Part shown: positions 17,203 to 25,153 of the stretch, one piece after another
How the letters are laid out: each line of letters starts with the position of its first letter
How positions within the stretch are numbered: position 1 is the stretch's first letter
Assembly (NCBI RefSeq): GCF_900078545.1
Contig: NZ_FLLS01000002.1
Coordinates: forward strand, 868,001 to 932,000
Reading direction: 5' to 3'
Length of the DNA stretch: 64,000 nucleotides
Origin: Olegusella massiliensis
GTDB lineage: Bacteria; Actinomycetota; Coriobacteriia; Coriobacteriales; Atopobiaceae
Translations under genes and position numbers: made by a program
Notes under the pieces: model-generated
Databases searched by the model: none
What the model was told of the DNA's origin: nothing
Seen by the model: the letters and a program-made list of their open reading frames with translations, nothing else

Positions 17203-17253
17203 TCAAAACTCGACAAGTCGCTCGGATCCGGCATCTCTATTGCCATGAGCGAC

Positions 17254-17265
17254 AAATGATTATTT
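17254..17265 (+). repeat. hsdS inversion site A
   Basis: The 12-bp core AAATGATTATTT in plus orientation lies at the 5' end of the silent half-hsdS. In the frame of that cassette it encodes N-D-Y-L, the same residues as at sites C and D. It faces site B (17867-17878) and site D (20006-20017), so inversion with either is possible. Confidence 0.8.
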
Positions 17266-17857
17266 GCTGGACTATGCTTCTGCACTATTCGAGAAGGAAG
17301 TAAGTGAGAATTCACATATTTTCAAGTTCGGGGACCTTGTGCAGCTCGAAGATTCCGAGAGGGTGCCGCTGAATAGCCGAGATCGTGCTGCAAGACAGGG
17401 ACCGTACCCTTACTACGGAGCCACGGGCATCATGGACCATGTAGATGATTACCTGTTTGATGGCATTCACATACTACTGGGAGAAGATGGTACGGTAATC
17501 ACAGGCGACGGCTTGCCAATTCTGCAATATGTTTGGGGTAAGTGCTGGGTGAACAATCACGCACATATACTCAGCCCTAAAGCCGATTACTCATTGGAGA
17601 TGTTGTATCTGGCGCTGCGAAAGACTAACATTACGCACATCGTAACCGGCGCGGTACAGATGAAGATAAGTCAAAAGAATCTTAACAAGTTGGAGCTAGT
17701 GCTGCCATCGCCCGATGCAATACCGTTGGTGGACGCCATATTCGAGGCATACAGAAACAGTGTTGAGGAGTCGGCGCATTTGTCCACACTTCGAGACAAT
17801 CTGCTACCAAAGCTTATGTCAGGTGAGATTGATGTCTCGGAGGTGGAACTGCCCTAA
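17264..17857 (+). CDS. Silent C-terminal half of an hsdS specificity gene
   Basis: This promoterless-looking cassette encodes the second half of a type I specificity subunit. A spacer-helix start (LLDYASALFEKEV) is followed by one target-recognition domain (FGDLVQLED, YPYYGATGIMDHVDDYLFDG, GKCWVNNHAHIL, KISQKNLNKLELVLP). It ends with the conserved segment LRDNLLPKLMSGEIDVSEVELP. Only a TTG at 17264 could start it, with no ribosome site, so it is probably expressed only after joining an N-terminal half. Sites A and B flank it exactly. Joining the operon N-half would give a protein of about 380 residues. Confidence 0.85.
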   Translation: MLDYASALFEKEVSENSHIFKFGDLVQLEDSERVPLNSRDRAARQGPYPYYGATGIMDHVDDYLFDGIHILLGEDGTVITGDGLPILQYVWGKCWVNNHAHILSPKADYSLEMLYLALRKTNITHIVTGAVQMKISQKNLNKLELVLPSPDAIPLVDAIFEAYRNSVEESAHLSTLRDNLLPKLMSGEIDVSEVELP

Positions 17858-17866
17858 GCCGCCGCT

Positions 17867-17878
17867 AAATAATCATTT
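17867..17878 (-). repeat. hsdS inversion site B
   Basis: The 12-bp core in minus orientation lies nine bases after the stop codon of the silent hsdS half. Read on the minus strand it continues as GCGGCGGCTTAG, which would close an N-half after LNDYLAAA. Confidence 0.8.
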
Positions 17879-17940
17879 ACCGGAACGTAGGCCTGCACTT
17901 CAGAATTGTTTCCATCGAACCAGGAGGAAAGGAGCCCCCG

Positions 17941-18906
17941 ATGGAAGCGATGATCAATATGGTCCTAGCTCAGATGCAGCCGGTTCTAGACTATCTGCAG
18001 TTAAAGCAATTAAAAACAGTGCTCGAAAGCACTCTGTACAGTCATGCCGAAAGCAGCGTGCCCAGCAACTCGAGTCTGCTCGGTCTCTTCCTTACCGCCA
18101 AGGAAGTCGAGGGGTGCTCTCCGAGAACAATCGCGTACTACGAAAGCACCCTCAAGCACATGGACAGCTCAATCGGGCAGCCATATACTCAAATCTGTAG
18201 CGACGATCTGCGCAAATACCTTAGTGACTACGAATCGAATCGTAGCGCGGGCAAGGTGACCATCGATAACATTCGACGCATCATGTCTAGCTTCTTTTCG
18301 TGGCTTGAAGACGAGGATTACATCGTTAAGAGTCCCGTCCGACGAATCCGCAGGGTCAAAACGGCAACGACGGCAAAAGAGATTCTAAGTGATGAAGACC
18401 TGGAGACCCTTAGGGACAACTGCTCGTTCCTGCGTGACCTCGCCATCGTCGACATGCTCGCATCAACCGGCATGCGTGTTGGAGAGCTGGTCGGCCTCAA
18501 TATCTCAGACGTTAATCTGCAAGAACGGGAATGCGTGGTCACCGGCAAGGGCAACAAGCAGCGCCCTGTCTACTTCGACGCGCGGACCAAGTTGCATCTA
18601 ACGGAATACCTACGCTCCAGGAATGACGACAGCCCCGCCCTTTTTGTGGCCCTGAGGGGAGGCGGGCAACGGATGAGTATCGGCGGCGTGGAGTCGCGCC
18701 TACGGAGTCTCGGCAAGCAATCGAGAATCGATAGGGTATATCCACACAAGTTCCGGAGAACGCTCGCAACGCACGCCATCGACAAGGGCATGCCTATCGA
18801 GCAGGTGCAAAAGCTCCTCGGCCATGCGAGAATAGACACCACCATGCACTACGCCATGGTGAATCAAAGCAACGTGAAGGCCTCGCATAGGAAGTATCTG
18901 GAATGA
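17941..18906 (+). CDS. Tyrosine recombinase, probable hsdS invertase
   Basis: This is a 321-aa site-specific recombinase of the XerC/XerD type. An N-terminal SAM-like core-binding domain (residues 30-130, FLTAKEVEGCSPRTIAYYES) is followed by a catalytic domain. The latter has the first Arg in ASTGMRVGELVGL, the HxxR box in PHKFRRTLATHA, LLGHARIDTTMHY and the terminal nucleophile Tyr in MHYAMVN. AGGAGGAAAGGAG lies just upstream of the ATG. It sits between two hsdS cassettes that carry inverted 12-bp repeats, which points to it as the enzyme that inverts them. Its stop overlaps the start of the second hsdS by four bases. Confidence 0.93.
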   Translation: MEAMINMVLAQMQPVLDYLQLKQLKTVLESTLYSHAESSVPSNSSLLGLFLTAKEVEGCSPRTIAYYESTLKHMDSSIGQPYTQICSDDLRKYLSDYESNRSAGKVTIDNIRRIMSSFFSWLEDEDYIVKSPVRRIRRVKTATTAKEILSDEDLETLRDNCSFLRDLAIVDMLASTGMRVGELVGLNISDVNLQERECVVTGKGNKQRPVYFDARTKLHLTEYLRSRNDDSPALFVALRGGGQRMSIGGVESRLRSLGKQSRIDRVYPHKFRRTLATHAIDKGMPIEQVQKLLGHARIDTTMHYAMVNQSNVKASHRKYLE

Positions 18907-20030
18907 TTAAGCGAGAACTCGGCAGTGTCTGCTCCCGTCTTAGCAGCGGGAAATCGATTTGCGCTGAGAATATAAACCCGATTGGGTCCTACCCGGTTAT
19001 TGGCGGTAATGGACTCCGCGGATATACCGACAGCTACAACTTCGATGGAGAATGCGCAGTCATAGGACGCCAGGGCGCAGCCTGCGGAAACGTGAGGTAT
19101 CACTCGGGCAAAGCATATATGACTGAACATGCAGTCGTCGTTTGCGCAAACGACGACAACGACACCCGCTACCTTTCCTACCTCCTTTCAATCCAAAATC
19201 TTGGGCGTCTGTCTGCGCAATCCGCCCAACCTGGCATTTCGGTAAAAACCCTTTCCAAACAGGAAGTCTGCCTGCCGCCTCTCGACGAACAGAAGCGAGT
19301 CTCCCAGCTACTTGGAACTATTGACTCAAAAATCAACGCCAACACTAAACTAAATGATTATTTAGCTGAGCTCCTCGACGCATTGTTCATGGATATGCTC
19401 AACAATGTCGACGCAAGCTGGGAACAACTCTCGCTCTTAGATATCGCAAGCTATAAAAACGGCCTCGCGATGCAGAAGTTCCGCCCTGCTCCGGACGACC
19501 CCGGCTTGCCTGTGCTCAAAATCAAGGAACTTGGACAGGGAGTTTGCACGCCGGATTCCGAACGCTGCACGAGTACGATAGACGAGAGCGTCAGAATTCA
19601 TGACGGCAATCTCGTCTTCTCGTGGTCAGGAACGCTCTTACTAGATTTTTGGGCAGGAGGCAACGCCGGACTCAACCAGCATCTATTCAAGGTCGCCTCG
19701 GATAGGTATCCGAGCTGGCTCTACTATCTTTGGACAAAGCACCATATGGACAGATTTATCATGCTGGCAAAAGATCGCGCCACGACCATGGGACACATCA
19801 AACGCAGCGCGCTGGCAGAATCCGAAGTCCTCATTCCACCTGCAGAACAGCTAGAAGTTCTTACGCAGAAAATGCAGCCCATCGTTGACGAGCTAATCGT
19901 AAACAAAGTTCAGTCGCACAAGCTGGCAGACCTTCGCGACACCCTACTCCCTAGACTCATGTCGGGTGAAATTGACGTCTCAAGCGTCAAGCTTCCTACG
20001 CCGCCAAATAATCATTTAGGCGACTGTTAA
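18903..20030 (+). CDS. hsdS: Type I restriction specificity subunit, full length, coupled to the recombinase
   Basis: This 375-aa protein has two recognition domains. Residues 1-130 form TRD1 (YPVIGGNGLRGYTDSYNF, AYMTEHAVVV, VCLPPLDEQKRVSQLL). The first spacer (IDSKINANTKLNDYLAELLDAL) ends the N-half near residue 154 at site C. TRD2 follows (LLDIASYKNGLAMQKFRP, LVFSWSGTLLLDFW, LIPPAEQLEVL), then the closing helix LADLRDTLLPRLMSGEIDVSS. The last residues run through site D. Translation is coupled to the recombinase by ATGA. It would direct HsdM/HsdR to DNA if expressed. Inversion between sites C and D would move its second half to the operon copy. Confidence 0.92.
   Translation: MIKRELGSVCSRLSSGKSICAENINPIGSYPVIGGNGLRGYTDSYNFDGECAVIGRQGAACGNVRYHSGKAYMTEHAVVVCANDDNDTRYLSYLLSIQNLGRLSAQSAQPGISVKTLSKQEVCLPPLDEQKRVSQLLGTIDSKINANTKLNDYLAELLDALFMDMLNNVDASWEQLSLLDIASYKNGLAMQKFRPAPDDPGLPVLKIKELGQGVCTPDSERCTSTIDESVRIHDGNLVFSWSGTLLLDFWAGGNAGLNQHLFKVASDRYPSWLYYLWTKHHMDRFIMLAKDRATTMGHIKRSALAESEVLIPPAEQLEVLTQKMQPIVDELIVNKVQSHKLADLRDTLLPRLMSGEIDVSSVKLPTPPNNHLGDC
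19352..19363 (+). repeat. hsdS inversion site C
   Basis: The 12-bp core in plus orientation lies inside the spacer codons (LNDYL) of the full-length hsdS. It is opposed by site D 643 bp away. Inversion between C and D flips only the second recognition domain. Confidence 0.85.
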
Positions 20031-20559
20031 TGGCAATTTTTGAATCAAGATTTAACCCGATACTAGCAATTGCCCGCTGGAAGGACAGGTCTTCCGGATA
20101 TGTAACCATAATTTCGTCTTGAAGCCGATTGCGATTCATCTCCGTTTGGCCCGTTGACCCTTCGGCCATCTGCTCAATCATAGCCTGTTTAGATTTGAGG
20201 AAGTAACCCAGATAATATGGATCGATTCCTTCACTTGCTCTTAGGGTTATCACGTGTCCATCGGTTGTGCAGAGTTGGCCGGGCTGTTCTACAACCTGTG
20301 CAACGCGGCCAGCGCTCCCAACACCAGTCGCGTTGATGAGTATGTCTCCTTGCTGAACAAGTTTTTCATTTTTAACGTGTTTAGCTGCTCCATCATGCAA
20401 ACGCGCTTGCCCATAGTCAACGGTTTGATTGCGAACGCATCGCTGGCCGAGGACGACCATACTTCCACGCTGCTCGCTCTCAACATATTTCGGGATAATA
20501 CCTTTCCCGATATAAGAGACGAGGCTCCTTAGAGATGCTGACAACCATCTAGAGCTCAT
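19996..20559 (-). CDS. hsdS: Operon hsdS, cut to one recognition domain
   Basis: This is the hsdS directly behind hsdM; its ATG at 20559 overlaps the hsdM stop. It encodes 187 residues: one recognition domain (VSYIGKGIIPKYV, DILINATGVGSAGRV, TTDGHVITLR, STGQTEMNRNRLQDEIMV) and the spacer GLNLDSKIAINSRLNDYL, then Ala-Ala-stop. The stop lies five bases beyond the site D core. Normal HsdS has about 400 residues and two such domains, so in this orientation the operon makes a half subunit. A joined C-half from sites C-D or A-D restores full length in frame. Some half-sized S subunits can dimerise, so activity cannot be excluded. Confidence 0.85.
   Translation of the reverse strand: MSSRWLSASLRSLVSYIGKGIIPKYVESEQRGSMVVLGQRCVRNQTVDYGQARLHDGAAKHVKNEKLVQQGDILINATGVGSAGRVAQVVEQPGQLCTTDGHVITLRASEGIDPYYLGYFLKSKQAMIEQMAEGSTGQTEMNRNRLQDEIMVTYPEDLSFQRAIASIGLNLDSKIAINSRLNDYLAA
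20006..20017 (-). repeat. hsdS inversion site D
   Basis: The 12-bp core in minus orientation is shared by the ends of two convergent genes. On the minus strand it encodes LNDYL of the operon hsdS, and on the plus strand it is in the last codons of the full-length hsdS (PNNHL). It is the gateway through which a C-half can be joined to the operon gene. Confidence 0.85.
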
Positions 20560-22060
20560 ATCCGATTGCCCCCAGATTCTTCTTGATCTGCTCCTGCAGT
20601 CGGTTGGACTCTTCGAAGCACTTGGCGATCTCACCGGTCAGCTGTGCCATCTTCTCCTCGAAGGGTTCGCCGTCGTCCTCGGCATCGGGAATACCAACGT
20701 AGCGACCGGGCGTGATGATGTAGTCCTGCTCCTTGATGTCCTCGACGGAGGCAATAGCGGAGAAGCCCTTCTCCTCTTCGAGTGTTCCCTCGCGAAACGC
20801 GTCGAACGCCCCGGCGACCTTGGCGATGTCCTCCTTGGTAAACTCGCGGAGCTTGCGTGACACCATGGTGCCCATGTTGCGGGCATCGATGAACAGGGTC
20901 TTTCCGGGCTGGGCTTTCTTCTTGGTGATGATCCATAGACTCACCGGGATACCCGTACTGTAGAAGAGCTTGTCGGGCATGGCGATGATGCCCTCGATCA
21001 GGTCTGCCTCGATGAGTCGTGCTCTGATCTCGCCCTCGTTGTTTGTCTGGCTGGAGAGCGAACCGTTGGCGAGCACCATGCCCATGCGGCCTGCGTGGTT
21101 GAGGTGGTGCACCATGTGCTGGACCCAGGCGAAGTTCGCGTTGCCCTCGGGCGGAACGCCATACTCCCAGCGCGGGTCCTCCTTGAGCTTGTCGCCTCCC
21201 CAGTCAGAGAGGTTGAAGGGCGGGTTGGCGAGGATGAAGTCGAACTTCTCCGTGCGGTGCAGGTCGTTGAAGAACGTGTCGGCGTTCCGCTTGCCCAGGT
21301 CCGCGTCGATGCCCCTGATGGCGAGGTTCATGGTCGCCATCTTCCACGTGGTGGGGTTGCTCTCCTGGCCGTAGATCGACAGGTCGTCGATGTTGCCCTG
21401 ATGGCGCTTCACGAATTCCGCCGACTGAACGAACATGCCGCCCGAGCCGCAGCAGGGATCGTAGACGCGCCCATGGTAGGGCTCGATGACCTCGACGAGC
21501 GTCCTGACAATGCAGGCGGGCGTGTAGAACTCGCCCGCGTTCTTGCCCTCCGCCTCCGCGAACTTGGAGAGGCAGTACTCGTAGGTGCGTCCCAGGATGT
21601 CGCGCGTGTCGCCCTTCTCCGCCATCTGCACGTTGGTAAAGAGGTCCACGACCTCGCCCAGGCGGCGCTTGTCCAGCTCCTGGCGGGCGAAGTTCTTGGG
21701 GAGGATGTTCTTGAGCTTGTCGTTCTCCGCCTCGATCTGGCGCATGGCCTCGTCGATGACCTTGCCCACCTCGGGGGTGTGCGCAGCAGCAGCAATGGTC
21801 TTCCAGCGGGCGTTCTCCGGCACAAAGAAGATATTCTCCGCCGTATACTCATCGCGATCCTCCTCGAAGCCCTCTCCCTCGTCGACAAGCTCCTGGTGGC
21901 GTTGGTCGAACTTGTCGGAGATGTACTTGAGAAAGATGAGCCCAAGCACGACGTTCTTGTACTCGGAGGCATCGATGTTGCCGCGTAGCTTGTCAGCAGC
22001 GCTCCAAATCTGCTGCTCGAAGCCGATCTCGGCGGTGTTGTCCTTCTTCTTGCGTGCCAT
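20549..22060 (-). CDS. hsdM: Type I restriction-modification DNA methyltransferase subunit
   Basis: HsdM methylates adenine in the target sequence set by HsdS, using S-adenosylmethionine. The 503-aa protein starts with the N-terminal helical domain (IWSAADKLRGNIDASEYK, VLGLIFLKYISDKF). The SAM motif is VYDPCCGSGGMFVQSAEF, preceded by AGEFYTPACIVR, and the catalytic motif is ILANPPFNLSDWGGD. AGGAG six bases upstream of ATG supports the start. It follows hsdR after 9 bp and overlaps hsdS. Base composition is clearly GC-richer than the flanking purine and kinase genes, indicating transfer. Confidence 0.97.
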   Translation of the reverse strand: MARKKKDNTAEIGFEQQIWSAADKLRGNIDASEYKNVVLGLIFLKYISDKFDQRHQELVDEGEGFEEDRDEYTAENIFFVPENARWKTIAAAAHTPEVGKVIDEAMRQIEAENDKLKNILPKNFARQELDKRRLGEVVDLFTNVQMAEKGDTRDILGRTYEYCLSKFAEAEGKNAGEFYTPACIVRTLVEVIEPYHGRVYDPCCGSGGMFVQSAEFVKRHQGNIDDLSIYGQESNPTTWKMATMNLAIRGIDADLGKRNADTFFNDLHRTEKFDFILANPPFNLSDWGGDKLKEDPRWEYGVPPEGNANFAWVQHMVHHLNHAGRMGMVLANGSLSSQTNNEGEIRARLIEADLIEGIIAMPDKLFYSTGIPVSLWIITKKKAQPGKTLFIDARNMGTMVSRKLREFTKEDIAKVAGAFDAFREGTLEEEKGFSAIASVEDIKEQDYIITPGRYVGIPDAEDDGEPFEEKMAQLTGEIAKCFEESNRLQEQIKKNLGAIGYEL

Positions 22061-22069
22061 TTTCGGCTC

Positions 22070-25000
22070 CTATTCGTAGATCTTCGTGTCGGCCCAGAGC
22101 TCGCACTGCTCCATGACCGTCTCCATGGCGTCGTCGACGCCCTCGGGCGGGTACTTGTACTTGCGTAGGAGGCGCTTGATCGCGCGGCGCATGCCCGCCC
22201 GGGCACTCTCCTTCTTCTGCCAATCTATCGTGGCACTCCTCTGCAGGGTCTCGGTGAGCTCCCGCGTGATGGACACGAGCTGGTCGTTGTCGTAGAAATC
22301 CTTGACCGCCTCGGGCTTGGTTATGGCATCGTAAAAAGCCATCTCCTCGTCGTTCAGCCCGAGCTTCTCGGCGTCGGTCCTGTCCCTCATCATGTCCTTG
22401 GCCATCTTGACGAGCTCCTCGATGACTTCGGCGTTGGTGAGCATGCCATTGAGGTAGGAGTTGAGCGTGCCCTGGAGCATGTCGCTGAACTTTTGCGCCT
22501 TGACTACGCTCGTGCGCTGGTAGGCCCGCACACGCTCCTTGATGAGACGTTTTAGGCTCTCGACGGCGACGTTCTTCTCCTTCATATTGGCGACCTCGGT
22601 GAGGAACGCCTCATCGAAGAGGGAGATTTCGACGTCCTGGCTGTCGAAGAGGTTGAGGACCCCGTCCGCATGGACGGTCTGTTGCAGGATCTCGGTCACC
22701 TGCTTGTTGAACTCCGCGTAGGTCATGCCTCCCGAACCCCCGGATTTGCGCCCCGTGAGCCTAAGCACCTGGACGCGCAGGACCGAGAGGTATGCCGCCT
22801 CGTGCTGGTCCTCGTGCGAGACCAGGCTCTTGCACAGGCTGAGGGCCTGGTTCATGAGCTGGCATTGCTTGAGGAACTCCTCTGCGTCGTCATGCCGCTT
22901 GGGTTCGAGCAACCAGTCGACGCCCTCCGCGATCGCGCTCGCGAGCTCGGCCTTCTTGTCTGTGAAGATAAGCTTGCGGTAGTCGAAGCCATACATGAGG
23001 TCGCGGCACACGTCGAGCTTCTCCAGGAACTTGGGGTATGCCGTCGCGGCGACGTCCATGTTGCCGTAGTTTGACTGGTCGCGGTTGCTATAGTCCTTCA
23101 TGGCCTGTTTGAGGGCACGGGCGATGCCGATGTAATCGACGACCAGGCCGCCCTCCTTATCCCGGCAGACGCGGTTCACACGAGCTATGGCCTGCATGAG
23201 GTTGTAGCCCTTCATGGGCTTAAAGACGTACATGGTGGACAGGCTCGGCACGTCGAAGCCCGTGAGCCACATGTCCACGACGATGGCGATCTTGAGCGGG
23301 TCGTCATCGTTCTTGAAGCGCTGCTCCATGTCCTTCTTGTGCTTGGAGCCGCCGCAAACCTCGAACCACTCCTCGGGGTCCTGGTTGGACATCGTCATCA
23401 CGACGCCGACTTTGTCCTTCCAACTGGGGCGCAGCTCCATGATTTGCTTGTAAATCTTCATCGCGATGGGACGGCTGTACGCCACGATGAGCGCCTTGCC
23501 CGCAAGTACGTCGGCGCGGTTCTCCTCGTAGTGCTCGACGATGTCCCTGCACAGAGCGTCGATGGTCTCCGGAGTATCAAAGATGGCGTCCAGCCCGCCC
23601 AGGTCGCGCTTGGACTTTTGCACGGTTGCCTCGTCGGCCTGATCGGCGAACTCACGGTACGCGTCATCGATGCGCCCGAGCGCGTTCTCGTCGAGGCGGA
23701 GCGCCATCACGCGACTCTCGTAGTAAACGGGCTTCGTCGACTCATCCTCGACCGACTGTGTCATGTCATAGACGTCGATGTAGTCACCGAATATCTCCCT
23801 GGTGTTACGGTCCTCCAGCGCGATGGGCGTACCGGTGAAACCGATGTAGGAGGCATTGGGCAGCGCCTTGCGCACCACGCGGGCCGCGCCCACGCTGACC
23901 TTGCCGGAGGCGTCCATCCTCTCGGTGAGGCCGTACTGGCCGCGATGGGCCTCGTCGACCATAACGACGACGTTGCTGCGGTCGCACAGGGGCTCATCGC
24001 CGTCGGTGAACTTCTGCATGGTGGTAAAGATGATGCCGTTCGCCTCGCGCCCCTCAAGCAGGTCCTTGAGGTCCTTGCGGCTCTCCGCCTGGACCGGTGT
24101 CTGGCGGAGGAACGCGGAGCAGCGCCCGAACTGGCCGTAGAGCTGGTCGTCTAGGTCGTTGCGGTCCGTGATGACCACGATGGTCGGACTGTCGAGCCTG
24201 CTCTGGAGCAGGTGTGCGAAGAAGACCATGGAGAGGGACTTGCCGGAACCCTGTGTGTGCCAGAACACGCCAATCTTACCGTCGCCCTCTACGGCCTTTG
24301 CAGCCCGCACGATGGCCTTGCGTACGCCGAAGTACTGGTGGTAGGCGGCGAGGATCTTGACGATCCTGTCGTTGGAGTCGTTGAAGCACACGAAGTTGCG
24401 GACGATGTCGAGCAGCCGCTCCTTGGGAAGCATGCCGTCGAGCATCGTCTTCCACGTCGCGGCCTTGGTCTCGGAGTAATCCCCGTCCACGGATTTCCAG
24501 GCCACGAAGCGGTCCTCGTCCGCCGTGATGGTGCCCACCCGCGTCTCGGACATGTCGCTCATGACGCAGAAGACGTTGGGGACGAACATGCTGGGAATCT
24601 GGCGCATGTACTGACGGAGCTGCTTGTAGGCGTCAGAGGCATCCGTCTCTTCGCGAGAGGGTGACTTGAGTTCGAACATGACAAGCGGCATGCCGTTGAC
24701 GAACACGATGACATCAGGACGCTTCTCGGAGTACTCGACGAACGTCCACTGGTTTACGACATGGAAGTCGTTGTTGCCGGGATCGTCGAAGTCGAGCAGA
24801 CGAACGATTTCGTCCCGGTCCTGCTCGCCGTCGAAGTAGCGCACCTCGACGCCCGACTGGAGGTAATCGTTGAAGGTCTCGTTGCGCTGTTCCAAGGTGT
24901 CACCCTCGACGTTCGAAATCTTGAGGATGGCCTCATCGATTGCAGCGGAGGGGAGCCCCTTGTTGATTCGCGCCAGAGCGTCGGGCAATGCGTCGGGAAG

Positions 25001-25153
25001 GAACACATCGCGGTAGTCATCTGAGGAGCGGCGGACGTCCGGCCCATAAAGATGGTCGTATCCGAGGTTGTCGACGAGATGCTCGACGATAACCTGCTCG
25101 AACCAGTCTTCATTGATTCGCGATGAATCGTACTCTATATAAGCGTGCTTCAT
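22070..25153 (-). CDS. hsdR: Type I restriction endonuclease subunit
   Basis: HsdR moves along DNA and cuts it when the complex meets an unmethylated site. The 1027-aa protein has an N-terminal nuclease region (VFVNGMPLVMFELKSPSRE, with the ELK of the PD-ExK type). The SF2 motor follows: Walker A in FWHTQGSGKSLSMVFF, VVITDRNDLDDQLYGQF, the DEAH box in VMVDEAHRGQYG, FTGTPIA, then the second RecA domain with AIVVDMWLTGFDVPSLST and QAIARVNRVCRDK. The C-terminal helical part ends near LRKYKYPPEG. AAGG upstream of 25153 supports the start. It is the first gene of the hsdRMS operon and shares its high GC content. Confidence 0.97.
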   Translation of the reverse strand: MKHAYIEYDSSRINEDWFEQVIVEHLVDNLGYDHLYGPDVRRSSDDYRDVFLPDALPDALARINKGLPSAAIDEAILKISNVEGDTLEQRNETFNDYLQSGVEVRYFDGEQDRDEIVRLLDFDDPGNNDFHVVNQWTFVEYSEKRPDVIVFVNGMPLVMFELKSPSREETDASDAYKQLRQYMRQIPSMFVPNVFCVMSDMSETRVGTITADEDRFVAWKSVDGDYSETKAATWKTMLDGMLPKERLLDIVRNFVCFNDSNDRIVKILAAYHQYFGVRKAIVRAAKAVEGDGKIGVFWHTQGSGKSLSMVFFAHLLQSRLDSPTIVVITDRNDLDDQLYGQFGRCSAFLRQTPVQAESRKDLKDLLEGREANGIIFTTMQKFTDGDEPLCDRSNVVVMVDEAHRGQYGLTERMDASGKVSVGAARVVRKALPNASYIGFTGTPIALEDRNTREIFGDYIDVYDMTQSVEDESTKPVYYESRVMALRLDENALGRIDDAYREFADQADEATVQKSKRDLGGLDAIFDTPETIDALCRDIVEHYEENRADVLAGKALIVAYSRPIAMKIYKQIMELRPSWKDKVGVVMTMSNQDPEEWFEVCGGSKHKKDMEQRFKNDDDPLKIAIVVDMWLTGFDVPSLSTMYVFKPMKGYNLMQAIARVNRVCRDKEGGLVVDYIGIARALKQAMKDYSNRDQSNYGNMDVAATAYPKFLEKLDVCRDLMYGFDYRKLIFTDKKAELASAIAEGVDWLLEPKRHDDAEEFLKQCQLMNQALSLCKSLVSHEDQHEAAYLSVLRVQVLRLTGRKSGGSGGMTYAEFNKQVTEILQQTVHADGVLNLFDSQDVEISLFDEAFLTEVANMKEKNVAVESLKRLIKERVRAYQRTSVVKAQKFSDMLQGTLNSYLNGMLTNAEVIEELVKMAKDMMRDRTDAEKLGLNDEEMAFYDAITKPEAVKDFYDNDQLVSITRELTETLQRSATIDWQKKESARAGMRRAIKRLLRKYKYPPEGVDDAMETVMEQCELWADTKIYE

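Follow-up and report, generated by a model that had tools for sequence, protein, structure and literature searches.

A putative four-site inversion switch of hsdS specificity in Olegusella massiliensis and the LAA ends of its half-HsdS products

We analysed a type I restriction-modification locus of Olegusella massiliensis (Coriobacteriia; Coriobacteriales; Atopobiaceae) carried by a stretch of 64,000 nucleotides, hereafter the window (assembly GCF_900078545.1, contig NZ_FLLS01000002.1, positions 868,001 to 932,000 of the forward strand; coordinates below are those of the window). Parts of the specificity gene hsdS are distributed there around a gene encoding a tyrosine recombinase. Read from left to right, the locus comprises site A, C-half cassette 1 (C1), site B, the recombinase gene, a complete hsdS with site C inside it, site D and, on the opposite strand, an hsdR-hsdM-hsdS operon (Table 1).

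Table 1. Features of the Olegusella massiliensis locus, in window coordinates
Feature	Coordinates	Strand	Remarks
Site A, AAATGATTATTT	17254..17265	+	In frame; N-D-Y-L heading C-half cassette 1
C-half cassette 1, second target-recognition half of HsdS	17249..17857	+	Headless; PF01420
Hidden tail behind site B	17854..17866	-	An N-half joined to site B would read NDYL-A-A-A-stop
Site B	17867..17878	-	Exact core copy
Tyrosine recombinase, 321 aa	17941..18906	+	Phage_integrase, PF00589; XerA/XerC-like
Complete hsdS, N-half 2 + C-half 2, 375 aa	18903..20030	+	Methylase_S, PF01420
Site C	19352..19363	+	Divides N-half 2 from C-half 2
Hidden tail behind site D	19996..20005	-	The operon N-half reads NDYL-A-A-stop
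Site D	20006..20017	-	Plus-strand reading is N-N-H-L in the C-terminus of C-half 2
Operon hsdS, N-half 1 alone, 187 aa	19996..20559	-	Ends ...NDYLAA-stop; Methylase_S, PF01420
hsdM	20549..22060	-	HsdM domain
hsdR	22070..25153	-	HsdR domain

Gene content and core sites

The window holds four exact copies of AAATGATTATTT in alternating orientation (+, -, +, -), as the initial annotation had stated, and not one copy appeared in 100 dinucleotide shuffles; sites B and C are identical over 16 bp. The reading frame across each site is L/T-N-D-Y-L, and the sites lie inside the LNDYL coding segment that joins the two target-recognition halves of hsdS. Both this frame and the positions of the domains place the sites at the boundary of the target-recognition domain (TRD) halves. 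The 12-bp core was also seen to be coding on both strands (17866-17878 and 20005-20017), giving NDYL one way and the NNHL of an HsdS C-terminus the other way. A fifth copy of AAATGATTATTT in the 1.8 Mb genome lies just after the open reading frame (ORF) of a membrane protein and was set aside as unrelated.

The presence of a dedicated tyrosine recombinase was borne out by its domain match and by the catalytic residues R/K/HxxR/H/Y, visible in MRVGEL, GKGNK, HKFRR, LGH and TTMHY; its closest solved relatives are XerA and XerD. The recombinase stop codon overlaps the start of the complete hsdS (ATGA), of which the N-half (N2) spans 18903-19351. The TAG of the tail hidden behind site B overlaps the TAA of C1 on the opposite strand (TTAG/CTAA). 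As for the operon hsdS, which represents the other N-half (N1), it is cut off two codons beyond site D and overlaps the end of hsdM. The locus had been described as two exchangeable C-halves around a recombinase beside hsdRMS; domain matches upheld the C-halves, the recombinase and the operon, but this description has to be amended, as there are two N-halves as well and the operon hsdS currently encodes only a half.

Inversion products and rearrangements among relatives

Every inversion between sites of opposite orientation was simulated, and the A-B, A-D, B-C and C-D products were enumerated. In silico, 16 arrangements are reached, with four full-length specificities that are all in frame, i.e. 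N1+C1 (381 aa), N1+C2 (404 aa), N2+C1 (350 aa) and N2+C2 (375 aa). The prediction that A-D and C-D inversions join different C-halves to the operon N-half thus held (381 and 404 aa). A-B and B-C inversions do add further arrangements, as had also been anticipated, but taken alone they do not alter the operon product. In the 8 of the 16 orders that keep the current direction of the recombinase, either N1 or N2 is complete, never both or neither; once the recombinase is flipped, C2 may read through beyond its site, giving 394 or 509 aa.

A recombinase scan yielded 80 loci. Loci carry L numbers below, and they were grouped taxonomically from record titles and search groups. The core AAAYGATTATTT, in the same +, -, +, - order, recurs in Bifidobacterium, Slackia, Paraeggerthella, Eggerthellaceae and one Cutibacterium metagenome-assembled genome. 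Twelve loci share it (L006-L014, L017, L019 and L027), L009 with three sites only, owing to a cut contig. Over 54 core copies, the 12 bp are constant save one T/C position, third codon positions included, and the flanks are variable; the invariance at third codon positions indicates constraint at the DNA level.

Related genomes, which the initial annotation had suggested comparing, do show alternative orders with breakpoints at the sites. These relatives belong to other genera, since the other four genomes of the genus are without the recombinase. In the Bifidobacterium catenulatum group, L006 and L007 are collinear on the hsdM side (99.9% identity) and on the recombinase side (97%), and the C-D cassette of L006 (10403-11081) corresponds to the A-B cassette of L007 (8952-8274) in inverted form, at 99.4% identity and ending at the sites. 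In B. callitrichidarum (L059), the recombinase module is flipped relative to hsdRM when compared with L049 and L061. The complete gene is the operon hsdS in some relatives and the recombinase-linked hsdS in others.

We consider it very probable that the locus is a four-site, recombinase-driven inversion switch of hsdS specificity in which half-HsdS products carry LAA ends. In this mechanism, the recombinase would invert DNA between opposite copies of the 12-bp core, located in the L-N-D-Y-L codons at the passage from TRD half 1 to half 2, and the two N-halves (operon-linked N1 and recombinase-linked N2) combined with the two C-half cassettes would give the four full-length specificities. N1 and N2 would face each other over the C-D interval, so that, in the present recombinase orientation, exactly one would receive a C-half; the other would run on for two or three codons beyond the site and stop, leaving a half-HsdS with an LAA or LAAA end. 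We infer that the adjacent recombinase performs the inversion, that switching occurs in this strain and that N2 products are expressed.

Two other readings of the rearrangements were weighed. The repeats might act mainly as direct repeats (A-C, B-D) that allow excision and reintegration, the mode of the pneumococcal tvr locus: site pairs of the same orientation do exist, and tvr-like loci have a recombinase of this family too. This seems barely conceivable given the alternating orientation of the sites, the rearrangements between relatives, which fit inversion, and the retention of the four-site layout in 73 loci, although the search itself demanded four sites. Alternatively, the locus could be frozen or decaying in this strain, with past rearrangement and no inversion now, as the half-gene state of the operon hsdS and the finding of the locus in just one among five congeneric genomes might suggest. 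The four identical cores, the intact recombinase with its catalytic residues and the in-frame joins of the main in silico products make this highly unlikely, and half-genes of this form are the usual off-state in relatives.

Among 65 loci, pooled over bacterial groups, in which a single outer N-half could be resolved, 64 have either N1 or N2 complete but not both; given the relatedness of the loci, with a few near-duplicates among them, no probability is attached to this count. In L077, the one exception, an early stop occurs at a start-type junction, and three loci left outside the count may be exceptions as well, namely L058, L084 and L049, the last having a third N-half next to site A. The convergent layout of the window imposes this rule by its geometry. 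In the co-directional layout of Firmicutes, geometry does not force it, yet the cassettes are reciprocal in 41 of 42 loci.

LAA ends of half-HsdS and their possible role

Junction ends were gathered from the 73 four-site loci. At every join between an N-half and the end side of a cassette, a stop codon follows shortly beyond the site. Such terminating junctions numbered 133 (129 non-redundant; Actinobacteria and, for the remainder, mostly Firmicutes), among which 86 end in LAA, 113 in L-x-A and 122 in Ala. Among ORFs of at least 200 aa in the same loci, LAA ends 3 of 966, all three being half-HsdS, which leaves 0 of 963 unrelated ORFs; it was likewise found at none of 130 full-length HsdS ends and at none of 184 ends in other reading frames at the same junctions. 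The N-halves aligned around that of the window share 21-29% identity, yet they end alike.

The LAA codons, which are GC-rich, adjoin the core at most sites, and the use of Ala codons is skewed (GCG, then GCT); they could thus represent a DNA element, e.g. a recombinase arm, rather than a peptide signal. Several results make this unlikely and point to conservation of the C-terminal LAA as a peptide. At the codon level, third positions of the ends vary more (1.3-1.4 bits) than first positions (0.4-0.5 bits), and L-A-A-stop is written by 22 different encodings. The ending is kept when displaced from the core by 1-7 codons (NGHLLERFVLAA, NKNLYDVAA, INDNLPYQSLMVA), 21 of 26 length variants ending in Ala and the displaced xAA/xVA ends including FVLAA, YDVAA and SLMVA. 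Start-type junctions, obliged to recombine with those of the end type, are without the element (EQ, EE or LE after the core), and the absence of LAA from the other frames also speaks against it. Antisense coding offers no explanation either: the HsdS stop stands before the site in 82 cassettes, leaving little or no antisense coding to account for LAA, and 75 of these tails are still Ala-ended.

A peptide-level role is suggested by the ssrA tag, of which (A)LAA is the ClpX-binding end (PMC8512704). ClpX is present in the host genome, and the host tmRNA (transfer-messenger RNA) region, an Rfam match in which ARAGORN called no tmRNA gene, ends in ...MALAA-stop when read by eye from the sequence. 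The likeness to the ssrA degron, which is read by ClpXP, lies in the C-terminal (A)LAA and in this ALAA-stop; the difference is that ssrA is added at stalled ribosomes, whereas the degron here would be written into the off-junction of a gene switch. A reason to remove the half-subunit comes from its potential activity: when EcoR124I HsdS was engineered down to its N-terminal half, the methyltransferase and the endonuclease built with it were active and had a palindromic target (PMC3320862), and the half-HsdS of the window is predicted to comprise an entire TRD and a helix at its end (predicted local distance difference test score, pLDDT, 82), matching HsdS structures and Esub1 entries of about 185 aa. 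In Mycoplasma pneumoniae, most HsdS proteins increase upon Lon depletion (PMC7737663).

The same activity is compatible with a stable, working half-HsdS that would dimerize on HsdM into a symmetric enzyme with a palindromic target, LAA being a neutral helix end. The EcoR124I half and the predicted fold favour such a product, as does the palindromic motif GCAN8TGC in one B. longum strain of the same type (PMC4618763). It would leave unexplained the 122 Ala and 86 LAA tails of the 133 junctions, LAA being absent from the full-length ends and from the unrelated ORFs, and we regard it as rather unlikely.

For the window, the chances are about even, or slightly better, that the LAA end acts as an ssrA-like C-terminal degron clearing the half-subunit, so that one specificity would be active at a time. 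The wider proposal is evenly balanced: across hsdS shufflons of Actinobacteria and Firmicutes, each cassette end would carry on its opposite strand an LAA degron translated only in the off-join, and ClpXP tagging of half-HsdS, together with the one-complete geometry, would keep one specificity at a time. Were the degron reading true, a known class of epigenetic switches would have an unrecognised quality control on half-built recognition subunits; this control would hold in check half-subunits capable of yielding active enzymes with new targets, and would explain clean switching.

Several points weigh against this picture. The LAA of the half-HsdS is predicted at a helix end, and ALAA required a preceding linker for a measurable Michaelis constant (KM) in vitro (PMC8512704). 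The Bacteroidota members seen end in SSA or LAN, which counts against generality. As regards the switch itself, the one assembly of this species that was covered gives a single order, so that inversion in this strain is inferred, and the four further genomes of the genus do not carry the recombinase.

Methanobrevibacter relatives were considered as a ClpXP-free control for the degron. A close relative of the recombinase (about 60% identity) was observed in 28 of 67 Methanobrevibacter genomes. The control was rejected, as the seven loci inspected (L083, L085, L076, L151, L152, L154 and L156) are without the four-site layout; in several of them, the recombinase lies between two convergent full-length hsdS genes, so that no half-product is formed and the degron is not probed.

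Relation to known systems

Epigenetic invertons, i.e. hsdS genes with inverted repeats and an adjacent recombinase, were reportedly surveyed by Huang et al. in 2020 and are said to be enriched in host-associated bacteria. The inverting type I loci of REBASE (PMC7394358) resemble the present one in their hsdS inverted repeats, adjacent recombinase and host-associated bacteria; the main text of that survey makes no mention of Bifidobacterium, Slackia, Collinsella or Actinobacteria. On all sequence-level features examined, the Olegusella locus is a member of the inverting (phase-variable) type I restriction-modification systems: hsdR, hsdM and several hsdS parts lie in one locus, inverted repeats occur inside hsdS at the TRD-half boundary, inversion gives in-frame alternative HsdS proteins in silico, the locus encodes a site-specific recombinase whose catalytic residues are intact, and relatives from other genera show alternative orders with breakpoints at the repeats.

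Class, layout and mechanism are already known from B. longum and pneumococcal cod. The pneumococcal SpnIII system, to which the locus had been compared, remains an analogue and is not the nearest relative. The locus of B. longum NCIMB 8809 (PMC4618763), an actinobacterial gut host, has partial hsdS genes around a recombinase and the same order hsdS3-recombinase-hsdS2-hsdS1-hsdM-hsdR. The passages of that paper that were consulted treat multiple and partial hsdS and recombination in general terms, and describe no sites, inversions of this locus or LAA ends. Cod/SpnIII (Spn556II) with PsrA likewise has a tyrosine recombinase in the locus and inverted repeats in hsdS, and its inversion switches methylation (PMC4948785, PMC7096588). 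Its architecture of three hsdS, three different repeat pairs (15, 85 and 298 bp) and a functional operon hsdSA is not that of the window, where one 12-bp core is present in four copies and the recombinase may have the complete gene behind it. The tvr (SpnIV) type, with direct repeats flanking hsdS fragments and excision translocation, does not apply either, as the sites alternate and tvr-like relatives look different.

Neither the LAA ends of half-HsdS nor the one-complete-HsdS rule was found in the literature searched, and both are new as far as its incomplete coverage shows. The locus also adds a complete hsdS shufflon of great regularity from a gut-type actinobacterium that has received little study, and it supplies a strict DNA site usable for finding further such loci.

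Loci of Streptococcus and Clostridia that lacked four sites resembled the tvr type and were left out. Seven loci (L180-L183, L132, L141 and L142) encode the same recombinase family and have neither the four-site layout nor LAA ends; their hsdS fragments end in EQSDKSKF-like sequences, resembling the tvr excision type. In a locus of the coriobacterial family (L103, 7289-13651), six core sites were seen, apparently an extended shufflon with a third cassette pair. Immediately outside site A of the window lies an ORF of 265 aa with an FtsK/SpoIIIE domain (PF01580; 16405-17202, minus strand), apparently a fragment and possibly the remnant of an element that delivered the locus, which the four other genomes of the genus lack.

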